A program made the translations under genes and the position numbers. From Actinomycetes bacterium (lineage in GTDB: Bacteria; Actinomycetota; Acidimicrobiia; Acidimicrobiales; RAAP-2), in the NCBI GenBank assembly GCA_021844425.1, contig JAKBTL010000081.1:1-45207 (forward strand): a DNA stretch of 45,207 nt, read 5' to 3'. The notes under the pieces were generated by a model. The model did not search any database, was not told where the DNA came from, and saw nothing but the letters and a program-made list of their open reading frames with translations. This document shows positions 6,484 to 32,945 of this stretch, piece after piece (the first letter of the stretch is position 1; each line of letters starts with the position of its first letter).

Positions 6484-7155
6484 TCAGGCTCGGTACATCG
6501 TGTGGGGATGCTCGAAGTGCACGGTGCGGTAGTACTCGATAAGCCGATCGACGAGGTGGCCGGGATCGGCGTCGAAGAGCACCTCGGCGCCGGTGTCCTT
6601 GGCGAGCTTTCCGACGAGCTCGCCGACGAAGTCCGCTACACCGTCGGTGCCGGTCAGCACCCCGATGAGACGGCCCTCGTCGTACGCGATGGCGAATTCC
6701 CCCAGAGTGCCCGAGTGCCCCCCGACGATGATCACGATGTCCGACGAGCGGATGTTGACCACCTCTCTTCCCATCAGGCCCGATCCGGTGTAGATCAGCG
6801 CGGCGAAGCCCTCGGTGGGTGAGGCGTAGCGATCGACGTGCTCCTGCTCCGACAGCGCAGGAGAGATCCCCAGTACGAGACCGCCGTGCGCCGACGCCCC
6901 GATGACGGCTTCTTGGGGCAGGCCAGGACAGGCGCCGGTGACGAGCGTGCAGCCGGCCTCGGCGATAGCCCGCCCCAGTGCACGCGCCCGCGCTGCGACG
7001 GAGGGTTCGATGTAGCCGCTGGCCGACCCCATCACGCCGACGACCAGAGGTCGCCCGGATCCGCCGGCGCGCTGCGCGGTCTCACCATGCCGGACTTCTG
7101 GTTGAGAGTTGAACCGCCCAGTAGGGAGGTCGTCGTGGGACAGGTTCCCGCGCAC
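6484..7155 (-). CDS. SLOG/LOG-like nucleotide-binding protein (TIGR00725-like)
   Basis: This 223-residue Rossmann-like protein resembles the LOG/lysine-decarboxylase-like group. It has VVGVMGSAS near the N-terminus, LVTGACPGLPQEA, and GGHSGTLGEFAIAYDEG, which corresponds to the PGGxGTxxE nucleotide-binding signature. The family binds nucleotides or related ligands; the TIGR00725 branch has no firm function. The frame is open to 7404, but the start is set at GTG 7155 because GAGGAGGAG precedes it and the upstream part would translate the 19-bp repeat array. It is read in the same direction as the STAS gene upstream. Confidence 0.8.
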   Translation of the reverse strand: MRGNLSHDDLPTGRFNSQPEVRHGETAQRAGGSGRPLVVGVMGSASGYIEPSVAARARALGRAIAEAGCTLVTGACPGLPQEAVIGASAHGGLVLGISPALSEQEHVDRYASPTEGFAALIYTGSGLMGREVVNIRSSDIVIIVGGHSGTLGEFAIAYDEGRLIGVLTGTDGVADFVGELVGKLAKDTGAEVLFDADPGHLVDRLIEYYRTVHFEHPHTMYRA

Positions 7156-7262
7156 CGCTCCTCCTCGTAGGCGTTCTTCGACGTCGGCCGGCCGGATCGC
7201 CCGACCGGACCGCCGACCGCGCCGACAGCTTCGCATACGCGCCACCAGGAGGCGACCTGTGC

Positions 7263-7331
7263 GTGCGCAGCGGGCGACGGCGTGCGCAGCGGGCGACGGC
7301 GTGCGCAGCGGGCGACGGCGTGCGCAGCGGG
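7263..7331. repeat. 19-bp tandem repeat array
   Basis: There are three full copies and one partial copy of gtgcgcagcgggcgacggc at exactly 19-bp spacing. The array lies between the STAS gene and the start of the SLOG gene. The unit length is not a multiple of three, consistent with non-coding DNA. Confidence 0.92.
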
Positions 7332-7342
7332 GGAGAAGCGCT

Positions 7343-7678
7343 CTATGCGGCCGTGAGGCTGCCCCGGTAGCCGAGATCGGGAGCTTGCCGCAGGTGATCT
7401 GCACCGACGCCGTGCCAATGGATCGTCGTCCCAGCTTGCTTCGCTCGGCGCTGCACCTCGCTCAGGGGAGCGGCAGCGTCGCTGTCGGCCAGGCGCAACT
7501 TCTCGATGTCGATCGAGATGGTGGGGGGCCGCGCCTCGAGCAACTCGTCGACCGCGTCGACGAGATGGTGCCCGATCACCCCGTCGAGCGTCCCGACGCA
7601 TCGAATCGAGCTCGGGGGATCCACTGTCAGGACCAGGACGGGGTCCGTCGAGACAATGTCTGGTGCACTTGCGCGCAT
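7343..7678 (-). CDS. STAS-domain protein (anti-sigma factor antagonist-like)
   Basis: The 111-residue protein is essentially one STAS domain: LVLTVDPPSSIRCVGTLDG, then an amphipathic helix (LVDAVDELLEA), the strand TISIDIEKLRLADSDAA and a helix with EVQRRAKQAGTTIHW. In SpoIIAA/RsbV proteins a Ser at the start of the helix after the Asp-x-x strand is phosphorylated by an anti-sigma kinase. Here LADSDAAA places Ser at that site. GGGAGGAG sits 6 bases before the ATG, which fixes the start. No anti-sigma kinase is nearby, so the partner is unknown. Confidence 0.8.
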   Translation of the reverse strand: MRASAPDIVSTDPVLVLTVDPPSSIRCVGTLDGVIGHHLVDAVDELLEARPPTISIDIEKLRLADSDAAAPLSEVQRRAKQAGTTIHWHGVGADHLRQAPDLGYRGSLTAA

Positions 7679-7787
7679 GGCAACTCCTCCCTACAGCTCG
7701 TCACGCGGGCGAGCCGCTCCTCACCTCCTCCTCGCGGGCGAGCCTCGCGAGAGCCTCGCCGGCCAATATGTGGAGAGATCGCGACCC

Positions 7788-8786
7788 GTGTGGGAATTCG
7801 GTGACGATCGATCGGCTGATCGCGCTGACGGGTCGTGGGGGCACCCGGCTGTCGCCGCGCGTGTCCGTCGCTCTATCGTTGCGAGACAGATTGCCGCGGC
7901 AGCGACGCCCGAAGTTGACACGTTTCGCCTGCTCGACGAGGCTCTGAGCCGGTACCTCCGACCCGAGACCTTTCCCCTTGGCATCCGGATGCTGTCCCCA
8001 GGCGAGCCCGTCCCCGAGGGCGTGCGTATCCCGAGCAGAGACGACGGCGAACGATGGATCGTCTGCCAGTCGATCGGGATCGCCCGCCGCTACGGCTGGT
8101 CCGTCGCGGTCGGCAAGGAGGAGGTCATCTGCCCGCTTGCTGCGGTCTCCTTCGGCTTTCGCCCCTCGAGCGCCCGCGACGACGCGGGTGAGGCCGCCCT
8201 CGGCATGTACTGCAGCGACGCGGACGCTGCAGCGGCGCTCGAGGCAGCGACGTGGCGCTTCGAGACGGGCCGCTTCGAACGGCTCTGCGTGGCGCCGCTC
8301 GCGAAGCTGACGTTCGAGACCCATGTCGTCGCCGTCTACGGCAACAGCGCACAAGCCATGCGCCTGGTGAACGCCGCATTGCACGCTCGCGGCGGCCGCA
8401 TTGCACGCTCGCGGCGGCCGCATTGCACGCTCGCGGCGGCCGCATCGAGAGCTCGTCGGGCGGCCGCATTGCACGCTCGCGGCGGCCGCATCGAGAGCTC
8501 GTCGGGCGGCCGTCTCGACTGCGCCGAGCTCGTCATCCAGACGATGCAGACGGGCGAGCCGAAGGTGGTCCTGCCCTGCAACGGAGACCGGATCTTCGGG
8601 ATGGCGCAGGATTCCGAGATGGCGTTCGCGTTCCCTGCCGATCGTGCCGGCGAGATCGTTTCGGGGCTCGAGGCGACGCACAGAGGAGGCGTGCGCTTCC
8701 CCATCCCCGTCGCCATGCGTTTCACGGTGACGATGCCGCCAAAGTACCAGGAGCTCCTCGCATCGCTCGACGACGCCGGCTCCTGA
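7788..8786 (+). CDS. DUF169 family protein with an in-frame minisatellite insertion
   Basis: This protein of about 332 residues has the DUF169 pattern: FPLGIRMLSPGEPVP, VCQSIGIARRYG, EEVICPLAAVSFGF, YGNSAQAMRLVNAAL, RLDCAELVIQ and FPIPVAMRF. Conserved Cys residues suggest a metal or Fe-S site; the role is unproven. GTG 7788 is the only plausible start before the conserved part. Between VNAALHARGGRI and SSGGRLDCAE a run of six repeat copies (8373-8508) adds 30 residues relative to the minimal form. The reading frame is kept through the expansion. Whether the protein still folds is open. Confidence 0.75.
   Translation: MWEFGDDRSADRADGSWGHPAVAARVRRSIVARQIAAAATPEVDTFRLLDEALSRYLRPETFPLGIRMLSPGEPVPEGVRIPSRDDGERWIVCQSIGIARRYGWSVAVGKEEVICPLAAVSFGFRPSSARDDAGEAALGMYCSDADAAAALEAATWRFETGRFERLCVAPLAKLTFETHVVAVYGNSAQAMRLVNAALHARGGRIARSRRPHCTLAAAASRARRAAALHARGGRIESSSGGRLDCAELVIQTMQTGEPKVVLPCNGDRIFGMAQDSEMAFAFPADRAGEIVSGLEATHRGGVRFPIPVAMRFTVTMPPKYQELLASLDDAGS
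8373..8508. repeat. Compound 22/24-bp repeat array inside the DUF169 gene
   Basis: Two related units are present: A (22 bp, beginning gccgcattgcacgctcgc) and B (24 bp, beginning gccgcatcgagagctcg). Their order is A-A-A-B-A-B. A minimal A-B pair is 46 bp, so 90 bp are extra and the frame is preserved. Confidence 0.95.
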
Positions 8787-8792
8787 GAGGGC

Positions 8793-8866
8793 GGGACGGG
8801 GGTCAGGCGGGGACGGGGGTCAGGCGGGGACGGGGGTCAGGCGGGGACGGGGGTCAGGCGGGGACG
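8793..8866. repeat. 17-bp tandem repeat array
   Basis: The unit ggacgggggtcaggcgg recurs more than four times between the DUF169 stop and the dienelactone hydrolase start. The first copy is slightly degenerate. It is non-coding, and the unit is not a multiple of three. Confidence 0.92.
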
Positions 8867-8926
8867 GGGGGCTGGTAGAAGACGGTAGAACAAGGATGAC
8901 GGAGCTCGTACGAGAGGGGACCGGGA

Positions 8927-32772: not shown

Positions 32773-32945
32773 GTGCCCCCCACCCGGCGCCGCCCAGGTG
32801 CCCCCCACCCGGCGCCGCCCAGGTGCCCCCCACCCGGCGCCGCCCAGGTGCCCCCCACCCGGCGCCGCCCAGGTGCCCCCCCACCCGGCGCCGCCCAGGT
32901 GCCCCCCCACCCGGCGCCGCCCAGGTGCCCCCCCACCCGGCGCCC
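32773..32945. repeat. 25/26-bp tandem repeat array between divergent genes
   Basis: There are seven near-identical units containing cacccggcgccgcccaggtg. Spacing is 25 bp four times, then 26 bp twice because a C run gains one base. It fills much of the divergent gap between the mutase and sufB. Confidence 0.95.

Follow-up and report, generated by a model that had tools for sequence, protein, structure and literature searches.

The DUF169 gene in the 45,207-nucleotide stretch of Acidimicrobiales DNA analysed here (hereafter, the window) carries a tandem array whose partial forms all break the reading frame but whose full length leaves it open. How did such an array arise, and was its open frame selected or a matter of chance?

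Structure and ancestral state of the array

The gene (Table 1) matches Pfam family PF02596 (COG2043) with an E value of 2.6e-46 and 158.6 bits, passing the gathering cut-off of 27; no other DUF169 gene was found in the source genome, which is 92% complete. The match is split into two stretches, one on either side of an insert that lies inside the Pfam domain. Read letter by letter at positions 8369-8504, the array has the unit order A-A-A-B-A-B given in the preliminary description, with A (GGCGGCCGCATTGCACGCTCGC) of 22 bp and B (GGCGGCCGCATCGAGAGCTCGTCG) of 24 bp. Across its 136 bp there are no mismatches among units A2, A3 and A4 or between B1 and B2, while A1 matches unit A at 18 of 22 bases because its first four bases, GAAC, are unique flank. 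The array is far beyond chance expectation: the longest exact close repeat in the coding sequence is 54 bp, compared with at most 14 bp in 200 codon shuffles of the same sequence, and unit A is matched 4 times across the window (0 expected). It was found once in the genome.

Table 1. Coordinates of the DUF169 gene, its array units and its start-codon sites
Feature	Position	Strand	Remarks
DUF169 (PF02596, COG2043) coding sequence	7890-8786	+	Runs from the position of the start ATG in relatives (ATT in the window) to stop TGA; Pfam and homologue alignment
Unit A1	8369-8390	+	First copy; first 4 bases GAAC are flank
Unit A2	8391-8412	+	22 bp
Unit A3	8413-8434	+	22 bp
Unit B1	8435-8458	+	24 bp
Unit A4	8459-8480	+	22 bp
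Unit B2	8481-8504	+	24 bp, in the ancestral frame; GGCGGCCG comes next (8505-8512)
ATT where six homologues (L017-L022) have the ATG start	7890-7892	+	DNA alignment of upstream regions
ACG replacing the second in-frame ATG of G001 and G012	7905-7907	+	DNA alignment of upstream regions
In-frame GTG that could act as the start	7788-7790	+	GGAGAG upstream at 7773-7778; candidate

We compared the gene with nine close homologues (G001, also listed as L017; G012, also listed as L018; L019-L024; and G032), which are 62-82% identical to the window copy over tblastn or genome-search segments and whose named sources are metagenome bins of Acidimicrobiaceae or unclassified Actinomycetes. All nine carry A-B alone, for example MRLVNAALHARGGRIESSSGGRLDC, and all encode the pattern MRLVNAAL..GGR...GRLDC without the insert. 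Thus, A-B is ancestral, and the window copy has gained 90 bp, or 30 codons. The alignment bears out both this net insertion and the in-frame return of the conserved DUF169 sequence downstream, as first described. The inserted residues derive from three reading frames of one repeat. A search for solved structures related to the DUF169 protein returned none (best E 0.53), and the AlphaFold models were poor (pLDDT 37 for the window protein and 36 for that of G012), so that the insert could not be placed. The function of DUF169 is not treated in the titles and abstracts of the papers found to mention it.

Probable stepwise growth by slippage between short direct repeats

In silico, the frame is shifted by additions of 22, 44, 46 and 68 bp alike and preserved by +90 alone; as in a compensated frameshift, the net change is in frame while each step is out of frame. 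The preliminary description saw two duplications that cancel. The net closure stands, but the simplest history comprises three duplications, of 22, 22 and 46 bp. Each is +1 modulo 3, so the steps sum to zero as like-signed shifts and not as an opposite pair.

We consider the array to be a recent, lineage-specific tract of short tandem duplications that arose as replication slipped between short direct repeats in an accessory DUF169 gene (probability about 0.75). Identical head-to-tail copies absent from the orthologues are what such slippage leaves behind, and short direct repeats at unit spacing are present in the sequence expected before each insertion. Once the duplications are removed, the window sequence contains two copies of GCCGCAT at a 22-bp spacing. 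This arrangement was found in none of the seven relatives tested, since it depends on the synonymous codons GCC GCA TTG of the window copy. The 8-bp GGCGGCCG is spaced at 24 bp in the de-duplicated sequence, and a spacing of 46 bp arises only after one A has been added.

Under this scheme, slippage at the 7-bp GCCGCAT repeat would first have produced A-A-B (+22), which would also have placed copies of GGCGGCCG at the 46-bp spacing; another A (+22) and one A-B (+46) would then have yielded A-A-A-B-A-B. As the 46-bp spacing exists only after the first A, the best-primed order would be +22 first and +46 later, with the third A gained at any time. Identical copies cannot prove the order of events, and a direct duplication of A-B on a 4-bp match (GCCG) is a possible alternative to the primed order. 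Slippage, the youth of the array and the order of its steps are what we infer, as opposed to direct observations.

Tandem arrays elsewhere in the genome

Per 100 kb, tandem arrays number 62 in the window and 32 over 259 kb of the genome it belongs to, compared with 20 in G001, 41 in G012, 45 in a genome of the same order with 75% GC and 0 in a family member with 61% GC. Being common both in the source genome and in the high-GC genome of the same order, such duplications appear to be routine background. We classed 327 arrays in 883 kb of the source genome by the coding frame of their flanks, using a crude classifier that put the majority in an 'edge or non-coding' class. Where both flanks shared a frame, the periods were mostly divisible by 3, and the DUF169 array is the only one of the 327 confirmed to have frame-breaking units within a coding sequence and to keep the frame (L044:7187 is a weaker candidate). 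Two other candidates were rejected: L098:13253 sits after a stop codon and is intergenic, and L094:4229 combines a weak coding signal with a TGA inside its repeat unit, and its relatives are about 60 bp shorter there.

MutL (PF01119) and NucS (PF01939) had no match in the five genomes of the family searched. Loss of mismatch repair was nonetheless discarded as the cause, given that arrays are just as numerous in a genome of the same order that has NucS and that loops of 22 bp exceed the size range of classical mismatch repair. Two separate adjacent pairs of MutS_V-domain matches were found at G000:C116:42263-44202 and G000:C133:8160-10087.

Several other features of the window were recorded alongside. 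The top-scoring tandem array, at 32773-32944, consists of 6.8 copies of a 25-bp unit with 99% identity. A perfect array of 4.6 copies of a 17-bp unit (8793-8870) begins 6 bp past the DUF169 stop; at this site G001 has no array and G012 has a different short repeat. Another perfect array, of 3.7 copies of a 19-bp unit (7261-7331), lies within ORF 6484-7404 (-), in the 5' extension that precedes the SLOG cluster4 domain; the true start of this ORF is probably downstream of the array. ORF 7346-7678 (-) falls slightly short of the Pfam threshold for STAS_2 (29.0 versus 29.2 bits) and overlaps, on the opposite strand, the 5' extension of the DUF169 ORF.

Selected rescue or tolerated decay

The closure of the frame was either selected or the one-in-three outcome expected by luck. 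That a second event compensated the first, as initially proposed, agrees with the exact closure of the frame, but a selected rescue is no better supported than coincidence. The open frame itself is weak evidence, because stops are rare at 70% GC; in relatives, open frames of 500-650 codons run through non-coding flanks.

It is conceivable, at somewhat less than even odds, that the gene was needed, in which case the frame would have been broken by an initial duplication and restored by later ones favoured by selection for that reason, and the protein would still function with 30 additional residues. Between the window copy and G001 or G012, dS is 0.34-0.37, dN 0.04 and dN/dS 0.11-0.12, close to the values for G001 versus G012 (0.10) and for the neighbouring DLH gene (0.11-0.16). 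Parsimony assigned 10 nonsynonymous and 17 synonymous changes to the window branch (binomial p about 3e-5 against 3:1). This purifying selection, the exact closure and the position of the array as the sole confirmed case in the survey all favour a needed gene. However, assuming neutral change and no homogenisation between copies, the array would probably be younger than about 9% of the window branch (branch dS about 0.25), although homogenisation could make it look younger than it is. With identical copies in a young array, the selection signal mostly predates the array. Thus, the earlier claim that the gene is under selection is clearly right for the window branch as a whole, but most of the signal is older than the duplications. 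A needed gene also sits uneasily with the insertion inside the Pfam domain, with the one-in-three chance of closure, with the presence of a DUF169 gene in only 3 of the 13 genomes of the genus (several of them incomplete) and with the loss of the ATG start.

The last two observations could instead reflect early decay of a dispensable gene, in which start-codon loss and insertion were both tolerated and the frame stayed open by luck, aided by the scarcity of stops; this, too, we regard as a tentative reading. Both ATG codons used in relatives are replaced (ATT and ACG; Table 1), ATT being a very rare start codon, and P123T, V135A and S257F (branch-comparison numbering) are changes confined to the window copy at sites conserved in relatives. 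The long open frames across the relatives' non-coding flanks count in the same direction. On the other hand, the gene body contains neither a stop nor a net frameshift, the ratio of nonsynonymous to synonymous changes on the window branch is no higher than on the sister branches (4:4 and 4:9), and the upstream in-frame GTG, with its purine-rich stretch, could replace the ATG, although the region around it is not conserved as coding in relatives.

Possible single event, assembly error or phase variation

The array might also have been built whole by one complex replication event, with several slips in a single round and no frameshifted intermediate. The identity of all copies and the clustering of 7-8 bp direct repeats within 60 bp are compatible with such an event, and nothing specific counts against it, but simple steps suffice and we consider it unlikely.

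Misassembly of a short-read metagenome bin of low depth is a very unlikely source of the copy number. Several contigs of the relatives are of metagenomic origin and have a coverage near 1-6, the source genome is likewise in 138 contigs, and the longest exact repeat (54 bp) falls just below 55, a common final assembly k. However, because of that 54-bp limit all 55-mers of the array are unique; moreover, the 136-bp array fits one 150-bp read, the assembly contains other window arrays whose exact repeats are longer (61-84 bp or more), and an assembler would have no reason to add exactly 90 bp.

We further regard as highly improbable the full scenario of a working DUF169 protein, reached via frameshifted intermediates, with a 30-residue Arg/Ala-rich insert drawn from three frames of one repeat and an array still switching length in the population. 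A phase-variation switch, in which expression of the downstream third of the gene would be toggled by the copy number of 22/46-bp units, is extremely unlikely: the units are not multiples of 3, so that single-unit gain or loss shifts the frame, and long perfect repeats are unstable, but the array is in no homologue, DUF169 is not a known surface or restriction gene, and no polymorphism was seen in the one genome available.

Relation to known systems

The array resembles bacterial minisatellites or VNTRs, which arise by slippage between direct repeats, in its identical head-to-tail units, junction microhomology, lineage specificity and youth, but differs in having two interleaved frame-breaking unit types within a coding sequence and a net length that is a multiple of three. 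It shares with frameshift reversion by a second nearby indel, as in Escherichia coli hisF revertants (PMC9032791), a net multiple of 3 near the first lesion and a local altered stretch; in contrast, the DUF169 steps span tens of bases each, and selection for their net closure is hypothetical. As in phase-variable coding repeats, the unit length is not divisible by 3, whereas the units are long and mixed and the single genome shows neither copy-number variation nor switching.

In our view the array is genuine: a young compound duplication, produced by slippage, with the reading frame left open. It is a neat example of an ordinary mechanism and points to no new system. As a natural case, it would show cleanly how synonymous changes may seed microhomology, slippage build a compound array and three +1 steps close the frame.
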